39,532 nt of DNA from positions 1-39,532 of IMG/VR virus record IMGVR_UViG_3300032323_000691. One strand, 5' to 3'. The DNA is from a virus. The notes below the pieces were generated by a model. It did no database searches. It saw only the letters and a list, made by a program, of their open reading frames with translations, and was not told where the DNA came from. The translations under genes and the position numbers were made by a program. Positions 22,522 through 39,532 of this stretch are shown here, piece after piece (the stretch's first letter is position 1; the number at the start of each line of letters is the position of its first letter).

Positions 22522-22872
22522 TTAGGCGACGTTGACGGTCATCTCAGCTTCCTGCGCTTTCTTGAGCCACTTTTCGGCGTTGGCGCGATAGCGTTCCGCC
22601 AAACTGAGCGTCTTAGTTTCGCTAAGCTTGATCCAAGTGCTACGGACGCGCTTGTTTTCAACGATTTTCATGTCTCCAACGAAGCCGCCACGGTTCAGAA
22701 TCTCTGTCACAAGACCGCAAACCTGAGGAGCTTCCAAAGCTGCCAGCTTGGTTTTCTTCTCTGCACGAGCGGCTTTGATTTGATCACGATAGACCGTGAT
22801 CTCGTCACGGGTGAACGAATTGCCGTTATTGACGCGCCAAACGATGTCTTCCTTTTTGAGTACGAGTTGCAT
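22522..22872 (-). CDS. First gene of the leftward operon, hypothetical protein
   Basis: 116 aa from the ATG at 22872 (MQLVLKKEDIVWRVNNGNSF). AAAGGA lies about 8 bases upstream; a longer start at 22914 would cross the hairpin 22909-22923. It contains a basic central helix (YRDQIKAARAEKKTKLAALE) and a C-terminal helical segment. As the first gene after the control region it would be the earliest expressed of the operon. No family recognised. Confidence 0.65.
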   Translation of the reverse strand: MQLVLKKEDIVWRVNNGNSFTRDEITVYRDQIKAARAEKKTKLAALEAPQVCGLVTEILNRGGFVGDMKIVENKRVRSTWIKLSETKTLSLAERYRANAEKWLKKAQEAEMTVNVA

Positions 22873-22981
22873 CTGTCTATCCTTTCTATGGTTTTGCCAG
22901 TTATTAGCCGCCAAGGTTTGGCGTTTAACCCTTGCGCCACGATAAGGCTACTGACTTGCAAGGGAACCCGGCTACGTTCTT

Positions 22982-23018
22982 TTGACGGGGAACAGCCATG
23001 CCGGGGTTAATTGTTAAC
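22982..23018 (+). promoter_or_regulatory. Promoter/operator candidate
   Basis: TTGACG (five of six to the -35 consensus) is followed after 18 bases by GTTAAT (four of six to the -10). The -10 overlaps the inverted repeat GTTAA-TTG-TTAAC (23006-23018), a possible operator. A transcript from here would run rightward into the inverted-repeat region. Assigned by eye only. Confidence 0.35.
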
Positions 23019-23422
23019 GGTTTGAATTTGTCCAAGTGGTTTCATTCGGAGCGGGTTGCTTGGTCAACTCACTCCGCGCTTTCCTTTCGGGTCGGAGAGA
23101 TTCGCGTCTCTCCAGTCGATCAGGTAGCCATACGATGCACCACCCGTAAGCTAATCGACTCGGCCACAATGGCCGCTTGGGCTAGCGTAGCGTCATCAGG
23201 ACTGGTTCAATTTCACCCTACTCCCTCGGCTCGCCTAGCCGATCAGGTTCCGACTCCGTCGCGCCCATCAAGGGACACTCTCGGCTCTTATGTCGTTACC
23301 CCAACCGTCGCGCCCTGTGGCACGCCTTCGACTCTGAAAGAACACCGGAGTTGCCTCCGACATCACCGACTATGCATACGCGAAAGCGCGTGACGATCAA
23401 AATCTTCAGAAATCGTCTTTTT
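23018..23422 (+). ncRNA. Candidate structured non-coding RNA of about 400 nt
   Basis: The region contains consecutive stable hairpins: 23047-23076 (CGGAGCGGGTTG paired with CAACTCACTCCG, one wobble and one mismatch), 23094-23113 (GGAGAGA/TCTCTCC), 23114-23160 (AGTCGAT, TAGC and TACG pairing with CGTA, GCTA and ATCGACT), 23161-23175 (CGGCCA/TGGCCG), 23227-23241 (CGGCT/AGCCG), 23346-23359 (CGGAG/CTCCG) and 23378-23391 (ACGCG/CGCGT). GTCGGAG at 23091 can also pair at long range with CTCCGAC at 23355. It is bracketed by a promoter candidate and a terminator-like hairpin in rightward orientation. Orientation and existence of the RNA are inference; a replication origin rich in secondary structure is the main alternative. 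Confidence 0.35.
23392..23422 (+). terminator. Terminator-like hairpin
   Basis: GACGAT (23392-23397) pairs with ATCGTC (23412-23417) and is followed by TTTTT (23418-23422). The loop is 14 bases and contains TCTTCAGA, which can alternatively pair with TCTGAAGA at 23426-23433. A weak to moderate rho-independent terminator in the rightward direction. Confidence 0.4.
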
Positions 23423-23427
23423 ACCTC

Positions 23428-23441
23428 TGAAGAATTCTTCA
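23428..23441. promoter_or_regulatory. 14-bp perfect palindrome, operator candidate
   Basis: TGAAGAATTCTTCA is a perfect palindrome. A half-site TCTTCA lies 20 bases to its left (23403). No gene overlaps it. It may be bound by one of the HTH proteins encoded in the leftward operon. Confidence 0.4.
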
Positions 23442-23593
23442 TGTAGTGAGGGAGAGACTACGCAAAACCAAGCAATCCGCGCCACTGAAACAACCTCACG
23501 GTAAACGTTAAACACAAGCCAAACCCGCGCCACCAAAGGAGCGCAATCCCATAGAGTCACCAAGAGGTCATCTAAGCAGGAAGGAAGGGCAAT

Positions 23594-23609
23594 TGTTCCA
23601 CGTGGAACA
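23594..23609. promoter_or_regulatory. parS: Perfect bacterial-type parS site
   Basis: TGTTCCACGTGGAACA is a perfect 16-bp palindrome and matches the highly conserved ParB-binding parS sequence of bacterial chromosomes (consensus TGTTnCACGTGnAACA; this exact form occurs in several species). It lies in non-coding DNA between the divergent operons. No ParA- or ParB-like gene is seen in this genome, so if functional it would be recognised by the host ParB. A chance match to a perfect 16-mer in about 39 kb is very unlikely. Confidence 0.85.
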
Positions 23610-23619
23610 CTCCACGCCA

Positions 23620-23670
23620 ACCATAGGCAAGCCAACGCTCCAACCATGCCAGACCATGCGTCAACCATGC
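23620..23670. repeat. Helically phased short direct repeats (iteron-like)
   Basis: ACCATGC occurs at 23643-23649, 23653-23659 and 23664-23670, a spacing of 10 and 11 bases or one helical turn, with a related ACCATAG at 23620-23626. The repeats begin 11 bases beyond the parS site. Phased heptamers of this type are typical binding arrays for replication initiators or architectural proteins. Confidence 0.5.
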
Positions 23671-23693
23671 TCCCGAATCCTTTACCCCACCCT

Positions 23694-23817
23694 CGCGTGC
23701 GTCTGTTACAAACGCGTGCGCGTGCGTGCGTGCGTTATGCGCCCGTGTGCGCGTGTCATGCGCGTGCGTGCGCCTGCGCGTGCGCGTATGCGTGCGCGTA
23801 TAGGGGGGGGAGGGGAG
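23694..23817. repeat. Alternating purine-pyrimidine (Z-DNA-prone) tract and G-run
   Basis: Bases 23694-23802 are dominated by GCGTGC/GCGCGT units with few interruptions, so purines and pyrimidines alternate over more than 100 bp. A run of eight Gs (23803-23810), then AGGGGAG, follows. Such sequence favours Z-DNA under negative supercoiling and can slip during replication. Both strands give open frames of His/Arg/Ala/Cys repeats here, which I regard as non-coding. Confidence 0.75.
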
Positions 23818-23873
23818 CAACGCTTGGCCACGCTGTCGCATATTGATAGGTCCGATTGCCACCTTAAAAAAAT

Positions 23874-23902
23874 TTGCAAATAGGTCTTGACCACTACCTA
23901 AT
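23874..23902 (+). promoter_or_regulatory. Possible promoter for the rightward block
   Basis: TTGCAA and CCTAAT, each four of six to consensus, are separated by 17 bases, with transcription expected to start about 14 bases before terS. An A7 run lies just upstream (23866-23872), resembling an UP element. Weak by sequence alone. Confidence 0.3.
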
Positions 23903-23922
23903 GCCACCTGTAGAACGTTTGC

Positions 23923-24522
23923 ATGGGGAGGAAGTCCAAAGCAATTGTGGAGAGTGTAGGGGAGGCGCAAGCCAACCTTAACCACCGTTACATAGAGAAG
24001 CGTAAGCCTAAGGAGGCAGCGTTAGCCTTGGATATGCTGGCTAATGGGGAGACGTATGCGAAGGTGATGGAGGAGACGGGTATAGGGTTTGTGGCACTAT
24101 CGGCTTTGAGGGCGCGGCATGAGCGGGCTTTGGAGGTGAGGCGCAAGGAGCTTGCGTTAGACGGCTTTGAGATGGCGGAGAGGATGAGGGCGTTGGTGGC
24201 AAAGAAGACGGAGATGTTGATGGAGGATGATGAGGCGTTGATGAAGACGCCGCTTAAAGACTTAACGCTAAGCTATGGCATTAGTGTGGACAAGGGCTTG
24301 CAGGCTCTTGGAGAGCAGAAGGTGGTGGTGGAGCATAGGACGGGGAAGCCGTCGCTTGCTGACGCTATGAAGGCTATTGAGGAGGCTAGGGCAGCTTTAC
24401 GGAATGACACCATTGCAGTACTCACGACCCCTGTTCAGCGAGTGGAGTCCGTCGTTGAAGTGGACAGCGACGATGACGAAGGAGGGGACAATAGCGTGGT
24501 GGAGTCCCGAAGTGAGGATTAA
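23923..24522 (+). CDS. terS: Terminase small subunit candidate
   Basis: 199 aa beginning MGRKSKAIVESVGEAQANLN. Residues about 30-70 (KPKEAALALDMLANGETYAK, IGFVALSALRARHE) look like a helix-turn-helix domain as in many small terminase subunits, followed by long helices (EVRRKELALDGFEMAERMRA) for oligomerisation and an acidic end. It stands directly before terL, the usual place. It would bind the packaging site, possibly in the non-coding region upstream. No clear Shine-Dalgarno lies before the ATG; GGGGAGG is just inside the gene. Confidence 0.65.
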   Translation: MGRKSKAIVESVGEAQANLNHRYIEKRKPKEAALALDMLANGETYAKVMEETGIGFVALSALRARHERALEVRRKELALDGFEMAERMRALVAKKTEMLMEDDEALMKTPLKDLTLSYGISVDKGLQALGEQKVVVEHRTGKPSLADAMKAIEEARAALRNDTIAVLTTPVQRVESVVEVDSDDDEGGDNSVVESRSED

Positions 24523-24530
24523 GGTGGTAT

Positions 24531-26138
24531 ATGTCCCTAGTCTGGAAGCAGCACCCAATACTGACGCCTCCTACGATTGAGGAGATGGCGCGGATGGACC
24601 CCAAGCAGTTGGTCCAACTGTGGGAGCTATTCCATGAGGCCATTGAGAACGCTGAGCGTGATCCCTATCGGTATGGCTTTAAGCTAGCCAATTGGATGGA
24701 GGCGGAGGAACTACTGGCTAAGAAGAATGAGATTCTTGTTAGCGGCGGAAATCGTTCGTCCAAAACGAGTTGGGCTGCTCATGCGGTGGTGAAGGCAGCG
24801 ATTGAGAACGAGGGGTCCGTTATAATGTGCTTCGCCCAAAATGCTGACGTTTCCATCAGACAGCAGCAGTCCGCGATCTACGATGCGCTTCCCGAGGAGC
24901 TTAAGCGCAAAACTCTTGGTACTGAGGAGAATGTCTCCTACACGCGAAAGAATGGCTTTAGCAAGTCGAGCCTCATCCTGCCGGGGAGCAAGAGCCACAT
25001 CATCTTCAAAACCTACGCCCAATACCTGAACAACGACACCATCCTTGAGGGTGCGGAGTTGGGCAGTAGGAAGGCCAAGTGGCTCAATATTGGTACATGG
25101 TGCGACGAGTACCTGATTGGCCCCGAGCTTCTGGCTACGCTGCGGTTCCGTCTGGCTACCCGCAACGCCAAGATGATTGTGACGTTTACCCCTATTGATG
25201 GGTATACGGAGGTAGTGCGCGACTATCTGGAGGGTGCCAAGACGCTGGTGTACAAGGAGGCCGAGCTACTGAACCACCGAAAGGTGCCGTTTCTGCAAGA
25301 GAGCAAGAACCGGAATGCTGGCATCATCTACTTCCATTCCCGCGACAATCCCTTCGGCGGGTACGAGCGTATTGCCGAGGATTTGAAGAACCGTCCTGAG
25401 GACGAGATCCTATGCCGTGCCTACGGTGTTCCGACGAAGAGCAAGAGTACGCAGTTCCCCAACTTCTCGATAGAGGTTAATGTCGTTAAGCATGAGTCCA
25501 TCCCCACCAAGGGACTCACGCGCTACATGATCCTCGATCCCGCAGGACGAAAGAACTGGTTCATGGCTTGGATCGGCGTTGATGAAGCCGGAACGTTTTG
25601 GGTCTATAGAGAATGGCCCGATGTAAACGTGGGAGATTGGGCTAAATGGCATGGGGGTAAGTGGATTGGGGGCGAGGGGTCCAAGGGCTTGGGCTATGGC
25701 ATCAAGGACTATGTAGAGCTTATCGGCAATATGGAAGAGGGTGAAACCATCTTTGAGCGGCTGATTGACCCTCGGCTAGGTGCGGCCAAGTACCAGACGC
25801 AGAACGGAGCTTCGTCCATCATAGAGGATTTGGCTGATGCGGGGCTGACGTTCATCCCTGCTCCCGGCTTGGACATTGAGGATGGCCTACAGGCGTTGCA
25901 GACCAAGATGGCTTACAACCGCAAGGCTCCGATGGATAGCGTCAATCGTCCTCATTTCTACGTTTCTGACCGCTGCCAGAACATCATCGCCGCACTACAG
26001 GAGTACACGGCGGATGGTGGGCCGGATGAGGCGCACAAAGATCCTATCGACGTACTGCGGTATGCCGCGATTGACGGCATCCGCTACGTTGACGACAAGG
26101 CGTTTAACAAGACTCGCAGAACTACAGGAGGCTACTAA
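24531..26138 (+). CDS. terL: Terminase large subunit
   Basis: 535 aa. ATPase: Walker A-like G72-G-N-R-S-S-K78-T79 and Walker B acidic pair in T-W-C-D192-E193. Nuclease (RNase H-like) residues: M-I-L-D336-P-A-G, L-I-D413-P-R and D504-P-I-D507-V-L-R-Y. These are in the order and spacing of phage TerL, the motor that pumps DNA into the prohead through the portal and cuts it. The gene follows terS by eight bases and is coupled to the next gene by TAATG. Length is standard. The exact packaging class (cos or pac) cannot be told from the motifs alone. Confidence 0.93.
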   Translation: MSLVWKQHPILTPPTIEEMARMDPKQLVQLWELFHEAIENAERDPYRYGFKLANWMEAEELLAKKNEILVSGGNRSSKTSWAAHAVVKAAIENEGSVIMCFAQNADVSIRQQQSAIYDALPEELKRKTLGTEENVSYTRKNGFSKSSLILPGSKSHIIFKTYAQYLNNDTILEGAELGSRKAKWLNIGTWCDEYLIGPELLATLRFRLATRNAKMIVTFTPIDGYTEVVRDYLEGAKTLVYKEAELLNHRKVPFLQESKNRNAGIIYFHSRDNPFGGYERIAEDLKNRPEDEILCRAYGVPTKSKSTQFPNFSIEVNVVKHESIPTKGLTRYMILDPAGRKNWFMAWIGVDEAGTFWVYREWPDVNVGDWAKWHGGKWIGGEGSKGLGYGIKDYVELIGNMEEGETIFERLIDPRLGAAKYQTQNGASSIIEDLADAGLTFIPAPGLDIEDGLQALQTKMAYNRKAPMDSVNRPHFYVSDRCQNIIAALQEYTADGGPDEAHKDPIDVLRYAAIDGIRYVDDKAFNKTRRTTGGY

Positions 26139-35412: not shown

Positions 35413-36540
35413 ATGGACCCGAACGTAATTAAACTTGCAATGGGTGCGGCTGGGGCTAGTGGAGGCTCTGCTGGTCTATATTCTTGGGGAGAGGGAGCTA
35501 GGGGTAAACTTGGACTTGGTAATACTACAAATTACTCGTCCCCAAAACAAGTAGGCACTCTTTCAGATTGGTCAACTTTACATGGTGGACAAACTTTTTC
35601 AGCAGCACTTAAGACAGATGGTACTATTTGGTCTTGGGGTGGAAACAGTAGTGGACAATTAGGTATTGGAAATACAACAGATCGTTCTTCTCCAGTTCAA
35701 ATTGGATCTAGTACGGATTGGAGTAAAATAAGTGGAGGGTACCAAAATTGTCTTGCCATTAAGACAAATGGAACGCTATGGGCTTGGGGATTTGGATTTT
35801 ATGGTCAGCTTGGCCTTGGTGAGGCTGGAGCTTATGCAAGCAAAAGCTCTCCAACCCAAGTTGGCGCATTAACAAATTGGTCAAAATTAGGGGTGGCTGG
35901 TTCGGGTTCTTTGTCGTTGCATTGTGGAGCTATAAAAACAGATGGAACGCTTTGGACATGGGGGTATAACAACAAAGGACAACTAGGTCTTGGCGATACC
36001 ACAACTCGCTCTTCTCCGACTCAAGTTGGTTCACTTACAAATTGGAATCAGTTATCTTACGGTGGGGATTTTTCAGCGGCTCTTAAAACTGATGGAACCA
36101 TTTGGACTTGGGGGTACAATTCTAATGGGCAGCTTGGGTTAGGTGATACAACAAACCGTTCATCTCCAGTACAAGTTGGCTCTAGTACAGATTGGAGTTT
36201 TATTGCTTGCGGAAGGCGAAGTTGTTTTGCTATTAAAACAAATGGAACACTATGGGCTTGGGGGTATAACGGTGGAGGACAACTTGGCGTTGGGAATACC
36301 ACTCATCGTTCATCACCAGTTCAAGTTGGAGCCTTAACAAATTGGTCTAGCATTTCTGCTTCATCTTTTGCTATAGCGATTAAAACAGATAAAACTATCT
36401 GGTCGTGGGGATACAACAGTGTTGGTCAGCTTGGTCAGGGGGACGTAAGCGGCAGATCCTCGCCAGTTCAAATTGGAGCATCTTCAAACTGGAAGGGAAT
36501 ATCTACTGGATTTAACCACGCATTTGGCATTTCCGAGTAA
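35413..36540 (+). CDS. RCC1-type seven-bladed beta-propeller
   Basis: 375 aa. After a short head MDPNVIKLAMGAAGASGG come seven copies of a ~51-residue blade, each with W-[STA]-W-G-x-N-x-x-G-Q-L-G-x-G-[ND]-T, SSPVQVG and AIKT[DN]GT[LI]. This is the RCC1 repeat, seven blades forming one closed propeller. In phages such propellers sit beside fibre genes and may act as receptor-binding or carbohydrate-binding tips. The gene is visibly more A+T-rich than both neighbours (poly-A/T synonymous codons), suggesting recent acquisition. Role as an adhesin is inferred. Confidence 0.85.
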   Translation: MDPNVIKLAMGAAGASGGSAGLYSWGEGARGKLGLGNTTNYSSPKQVGTLSDWSTLHGGQTFSAALKTDGTIWSWGGNSSGQLGIGNTTDRSSPVQIGSSTDWSKISGGYQNCLAIKTNGTLWAWGFGFYGQLGLGEAGAYASKSSPTQVGALTNWSKLGVAGSGSLSLHCGAIKTDGTLWTWGYNNKGQLGLGDTTTRSSPTQVGSLTNWNQLSYGGDFSAALKTDGTIWTWGYNSNGQLGLGDTTNRSSPVQVGSSTDWSFIACGRRSCFAIKTNGTLWAWGYNGGGQLGVGNTTHRSSPVQVGALTNWSSISASSFAIAIKTDKTIWSWGYNSVGQLGQGDVSGRSSPVQIGASSNWKGISTGFNHAFGISE

Positions 36541-39381: not shown

Positions 39382-39532
39382 ATGAGCGTAATCACCGAAC
39401 TCCTTTTCAATGCCGGAACCGGAGGTTTGTTTGGCCTCTTTGGATCTTTGGCTACGAGTGCTCTCCGCATTTGGGAAAAGCGGCAGGACAACAAGTTTGC
39501 GCTAGATATGCTGGACAAGCAAGCTGCTAGTG
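39382..39532 (+). CDS. Holin-like protein, 5' part of the gene split by the contig ends
   Basis: ATG at 39382; MSVITELLFNAGTGGLFGLF then SLATSALRIWEKR. From 39410 the DNA is identical to bases 1-123, and the frame continues there to the stop at 395. This supplies the true start of the 3-TM holin-like protein described at 1-395. It begins one base after the stop of the fibre gene. Confidence 0.8.
   Translation, partial: MSVITELLFNAGTGGLFGLFGSLATSALRIWEKRQDNKFALDMLDKQAAS
39410..39532. repeat. Terminal direct repeat, right copy
   Basis: Exact copy of bases 1-123. Shows that the window can be closed into a circle of 39,409 bp. Confidence 0.95.

Follow-up and report, generated by a model that had tools for sequence, protein, structure and literature searches.

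A chromosome-type parS site without parA or parB on a podovirus-like phage genome and its possible use through host ParB

Why should a phage in which neither ParA nor ParB can be found carry a chromosomal centromere, letter for letter, in its only long non-coding region? The question is raised by the window, the whole stretch of DNA analysed here (39,532 nt), which is a podovirus-like genome of 39.5 kb. The 16-bp perfect palindrome TGTTCCACGTGGAACA lies at positions 23594–23609. It is the longest perfect palindrome of the window and is present as a single exact copy, with no other match at three mismatches or fewer in a scan of the whole window. It agrees at 16/16 positions with TGTTNCACGTGNAACA, the 16-bp palindrome with a CACGTG core that defines chromosome-type parS, and is identical to parS2/parS3 of Pseudomonas aeruginosa and to the parS of Pseudomonas putida. 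An earlier note on this DNA had equated the palindrome with a conserved bacterial parS, and the 16/16 match to the published parS2/3 sequence bears this out. In P. aeruginosa, parS2 and parS3 are perfect palindromes and the highest-affinity targets of ParB (PMC4368675; also PMC4820964), and one site of this type together with parAB stabilised an unstable plasmid (PMC4368675). The parS listed for P. putida is the same 16-mer (PMC7022226). Assuming independent bases, the expected number of chance matches to TGTTCCACGTGGAACA is 8.9e-6 for the whole window and 2.3e-7 for the gap that contains it. A chance origin was rejected on the per-window expectation and on the exact-only pattern in relatives described below.

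The window carries an exact terminal repeat of 123 bp, recognized by sequence identity (left copy at 1–123, right copy at 39410–39532), which is either a true repeat or the overlap of a circular assembly. The genome is complete or nearly complete. The site sits inside a gap of 1,008 bp (22915–23922) between divergent blocks of leftward early and rightward late genes, and is thus non-coding and outside genes, as had been claimed. This is the sole long non-coding gap; the remaining gaps of more than 60 bp are each shorter than 180 bp. The leftward early genes include a DnaB-like helicase, an exonuclease, an O-like initiator, GP88 and a metallophosphoesterase. The first of them beyond the gap (22522–22914, minus strand) has no assigned function and is found in parS-positive and parS-negative relatives alike. 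On the other side, a small gene directly 5' of the large terminase gene is a putative TerS (23923–24522, plus strand), named for its position beside TerL and kept in all relatives, with no family match in Pfam or PHROGs. TerL itself (24531–26138, plus strand) matches phrog_2 (E 4e-17). We used TerS as the position anchor, relative to which the parS of the window lies at -329.

Other elements share the gap. A conserved G-rich tract, AGGGGGGGGAGGGG (23802–23815, plus strand, -121 of TerS), is separate from parS. A run of G7 or longer is present at this tract in 83 of 91 relatives, and the cultured phage C75C1 has the tract too. It often reads TATAGGGGGGGGAGGGG, about 120–315 bp 5' of TerS, and is similar to the start (TATAGGG) of T7-type promoters, but a phage RNA polymerase was not among the genes seen. 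The tract is possibly a late promoter or a packaging element. Two alternating purine–pyrimidine, Z-DNA-like tracts (GCGTGCGTGC..., at 23712–23735 and 23775–23802, within 23712–23802) adjoin it, and nothing indicates that they take part in parS function. The earlier note had described phased repeats and structured DNA near the site: the alternating tracts are real, whereas the 'phased repeats' are only weak direct repeats. An AAAAAATTTGCAAAT element at 23870–23883, just 5' of TerS, is conserved in about one quarter of relatives and is possibly related to a promoter. Elsewhere in the window, in the late region amid virion and tail genes, a protein with RCC1/beta-propeller repeats (35413–36540, Pfam E ~1e-73) is unusual for a phage.

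Partition genes were sought by whole-record family searches and by Pfam/PHROGs scans of most window ORFs. These retrieved no ParB (whole-record TIGR00180 and PF02195) and no ParA (whole-record PF13614) in the window, no integrase (whole-record PF00589, and PHROG/Pfam among the ORFs scanned), and no lysogeny or plasmid genes. Neither the ParB nor the ParA gene of a complete ParABS system or phage-plasmid was therefore detected, nor the integrase of an integrating temperate phage. The profile searches and ORF scans of this complete genome agree with the original description of a phage without ParA or ParB, and a phage-encoded ParB homologue, which the note had named as evidence against its reading, was looked for and not found. 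A phage-encoded ParB, ParA or Noc-like protein as reader of the site was rejected, as profile searches found none. Among other records, ParB scored above cut-off in none of 50 parS-positive records and in none of 50 records mostly with canonical parS, where three weak sub-threshold matches were obtained (three records are common to both sets). PF13614 matched one of the 39 records searched (L003). Integrases were detected in 0/39 parS-positive vs 4/32 control records, a weak comparison that was left out of the argument. Whole-record family searches can overlook genes, and PF00589 missed an integrase, in L010, that PHROGs detected.

To what extent is the site kept by relatives? We scored 92 distinct TerL-relative loci for parS, the window and the distant L089 included. 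The exact 16-mer is present in 16 and absent from 76, and L089 carries it though its TerL is only 42% identical. Of the 91 homologous gaps that could be aligned through TerS, 15 contain an exact site, none a site with one to four mismatches and four a site with five mismatches, while shuffles of the same gaps yielded no exact site and about two with four mismatches. Best matches in the parS-negative relatives being at the level of shuffles, the idea that they retain decayed sites was rejected. Elsewhere in the genome, none of 30 other relative records, some of them nearly complete, carries a sequence within one mismatch of TGTTNCACGTGNAACA. The flanks are 62–89% identical, or cannot be aligned at all, whereas the site itself matches at 16/16 positions. 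Across five independent positive pairs with flanks 62–89% identical, the joint chance of an invariant site at the flank rate is ~7e-12, rising to ~1e-6 with the higher flank identities given by BLAST; both are rough estimates, since flanks of weak homology align poorly. Exact sites without near-misses, set in diverged flanks, identify a sequence under selection, as is proper to a chromosome-type parS.

The presence of the site is scattered. L151, which has parS, can be aligned with L152 and L154, which lack it, at about 80% in the flanks, and only the site itself is swapped for a purine-rich filler. On the TerL tree, the parS label shows no more clustering than shuffled labels do, and the starred branches require at least 11 changes, so that clade-specific inheritance was rejected; as the tree was built on TerL, a recombined gap is scored as a gain or a loss. 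The earlier note had treated absence of the palindrome from the same place in close relatives as evidence against its reading. The outcome is divided: 76 of the 91 relatives have no site, including L122 and L123, whose TerL is 99% identical, and the other 15 have it exact and at the same place, with no degenerate copy in the set. The absence of intermediate forms is best read as a functional site being gained and lost, and not as a lack of function. The site is dispensable, since so many relatives do without it, some of them nearly identical in TerL, and its frequent gain and loss argues that any benefit is conditional.

Beyond these relatives, exact TGTTCCACGTGGAACA was retrieved from at least 120 IMG/VR stretches, against 1, 10 and 54 stretches for three control palindromes (complete scans). 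Many IMG/VR records are fragments, and some host DNA may be included. Among the matches listed, the palindrome falls in non-coding sequence (no ORF of at least 80 codons over its centre) in 45 of the 120 parS stretches and in 2 of the 54 stretches of a control (Fisher p = 7e-7), and 13% of positions drawn at random from the parS set are non-coding. Of 13 parS-positive contigs identified independently via TerL, only one is among the 120 listed, so such contigs are probably many times more numerous in reality. The canonical Bacillus-type TGTTTCACGTGAAACA is present in at least 119 IMG/VR contigs, and 17 of the 119 listed have two or more copies. Four records (L351, L378, L397 and L344) hold three to five canonical copies in short stretches, with no ParB above cut-off; such clusters may represent stronger orphan centromeres, or else host DNA.

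In other lineages, parS lies close to TerL, head–tail adaptor or capsid genes. The phrog_371 lineage offers a second view of gain and loss. In the capsid region of L032 and L037, whose capsid proteins are 66% identical, parS lies just 3' of the capsid gene. A comparison of 80 relatives placed the exact site 51–58 bp 3' of the capsid stop, past an ordinary terminator, in L478 (same contig as L032) and L481. Variants at the same place keep the arms intact and have a changed central CpG (TGTTCCACATGGAACA, TGTTCCATGTGGAACA and TGTTTCACATGAAACA); those of L480 and L485 differ from TGTTCCACGTGGAACA at one position, and those of L482/L483 differ from TGTTTCACGTGAAACA at one. In other relatives of the lineage, the conserved CCTGACAG and CTGACA motifs enclose short spacers of unrelated sequence. 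Across L478–L491, the stretch 35–60 bp after the capsid stop is a hot spot for exchange of small elements. Gain and loss at a fixed place thus recurs in this lineage, although its core variants would also be compatible with a hairpin.

Which cell would read the site? The cultured relative C75C1 (MCP 65% and TerL 44% identical) has no parS, and its host is not stated. The sole genome match was a TerL at 40% identity on a 10-kb contig of an Opitutae MAG. In the order of this MAG, Opitutales, 64 of 87 genomes carry TGTTNCACGTGNAACA, nearly all in the exact GG form and mostly in one or two copies, up to three, and the reversed parS pattern occurs in two genomes. The parS of the MAG itself lies in mnmG, a usual oriC-linked neighbourhood. 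The chromosomes of this candidate host group thus use the 16-mer of the phage as parS, at very low copy. These matches point weakly to Opitutales as a plausible host group, beta- and gammaproteobacteria being equally possible.

An exact tag that is either letter-perfect or absent suggests that the phage borrows or sequesters the chromosome-segregation machinery of its host. Binding of host ParB to the phage parS is very probable. We are evenly divided on whether the 16-mer is a functional chromosome-type parS that, without parA or parB, is used through host machinery, and put forward positioning or retention as its use more tentatively, at somewhat less than even confidence. ParB is a CTP-dependent clamp. 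Upon entry of the phage DNA, host ParB would load at parS and spread, as it does from parS introduced into other DNA, and the coated genome would resemble a chromosomal origin region to the cell. Host ParA could then tether the phage genome to the nucleoid and move it, and the genome could also receive host SMC. The likeliest gain would be that an unintegrated genome is retained and well positioned during a slow or carrier-type infection. Retention or positioning is favoured because one parS with ParAB achieves it for a plasmid; as no lysogeny or plasmid genes were found, the value of partitioning to this phage is uncertain. A partition system made of the centromere only, as the earlier note envisaged, is a plausible reading among several.

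Retention or positioning being the likeliest use, its main rivals are titration of ParB, which is nearly as attractive, and silencing of late genes. Under titration, the parS copies of the replicating phage would draw host ParB, and SMC with it, off the one to three chromosomal sites, stalling segregation and the cell cycle. With so few sites in candidate hosts, a single phage genome would compete at about 1:1 and a whole burst would overwhelm the host; the site could lie anywhere in the phage genome, and lysogeny genes, of which none was found, are not required. However, one site per genome makes a modest sponge, and several bacteria cope without ParB, which is non-essential for example in P. 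aeruginosa and P. putida (PMC7022226), so that the gain to the phage is doubtful. On balance, we consider titration rather unlikely to be the explanation.

Alternatively, parS might act as a silencer that senses copy number, where ParB spreading from the site represses the TerS/TerL promoter early and is diluted by phage replication, which relieves the repression. Spreading of ParB/KorB is known to silence nearby genes (PMC7333895; PMC4820964), the site lies 329–606 bp 5' of TerS in the 15 positive relatives, and the sites of other lineages adjoin TerL, head–tail adaptor or capsid genes, as noted above. Against this, the gap is the sole long non-coding space, so that the position may be neutral, and most relatives do without the site. 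Moreover, the site keeps no constant spacing to TerS or the other elements: its distance to TerS and the G-tract varies by hundreds of bases, which fits a loading site and argues against a steric mechanism or a tight operator. Silencing is accordingly judged unlikely.

ParB clamps or SMC loading might also make the phage DNA mimic the chromosome and guard it from defences that sense foreign or small DNA. The scattered gain and loss would suit an arms-race trait dependent on host defences, but no known defence has been shown to be blocked by ParB, and such a shield appears improbable. Similarly improbable, and slightly more so, is that the palindrome merely resembles parS and serves a phage-encoded regulator as operator, or forms an RNA hairpin or terminator. 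Palindromes can serve as operators or hairpins, and the phrog_371 variants with an altered central CpG, intact arms and the same place would suit such a role. Yet that lineage has a separate true terminator 5' of the site, and in the window no terminator is called at the palindrome, which lies in the middle of the gap, 329 bp before TerS. A tie to a neighbouring early gene was rejected, as no early gene of the window that was tested tracks the presence of the site, and parS-negative relatives show no other palindrome at a constant position. The unrelated control palindromes are rare and coding. A chance match or neutral remnant of host DNA, for which only the shortness of 16 bp speaks, is scarcely credible in view of the 15 exact sites and none with one to four mismatches in 91 gaps, the lack of exact sites in shuffles, the lack of a host gene around the site and the several independent flank contexts among positives.

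An orphan centromere read by host ParB would differ from the nearest described systems. The chromosomal ParABS of Pseudomonas has the identical 16-bp centromere (TGTTCCACGTGGAACA), a single copy of which acts given ParA and ParB; here the site is on a phage without parA or parB, and any ParA or ParB must be those of the host. The phage-plasmids P1 and N15, mycobacteriophage RedRock and cyanophage Mic1 likewise have a phage centromere and need no integrase, but they encode ParA and ParB, and their own parS differs from the chromosomal 16-mer. Lacachita-type Staphylococcus phages, also without integrase and with an incomplete partition set, are the mirror image, having a ParB gene without ParA (PMC10286716), whereas the window has the site without either gene. 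In engineered lambda-parS/CFP-ParB and P22-parS phages, ParB provided by the cell gathers on a phage parS and becomes visible as foci while infection proceeds; these are man-made tags with heterologous ParB (PMC13190303, PMC4697819), and the natural case would use host ParB. The Corynebacterium prophage CGP3 is also positioned by a partition-like system, AlpC, although this is a phage-encoded actin-like motor (PMC4446434) and not the host centromere code. We retrieved no earlier description of a chromosomal parS on natural phages that lack ParB from the open full-text literature, a scope outside which most subscription papers fall, so that a prior mention is possible.

Chances seem even that hijacking of host ParB by a centromere alone is a widespread strategy, in which many unrelated tailed phages carry an orphan parS, repeatedly gained and lost, to plug into or disrupt segregation and SMC. 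If host ParB is recruited, phages would be exploiting the bacterial centromere code itself, and the window would be a natural example of partition acting only in cis. This would shed new light on the ways in which phage genomes persist or compete in a cell without integrating, and host ParB foci would mark infecting genomes in vivo without engineering. The 16-bp element would thereby become a trait of host interaction that can be tested in hundreds of metagenomic phages.
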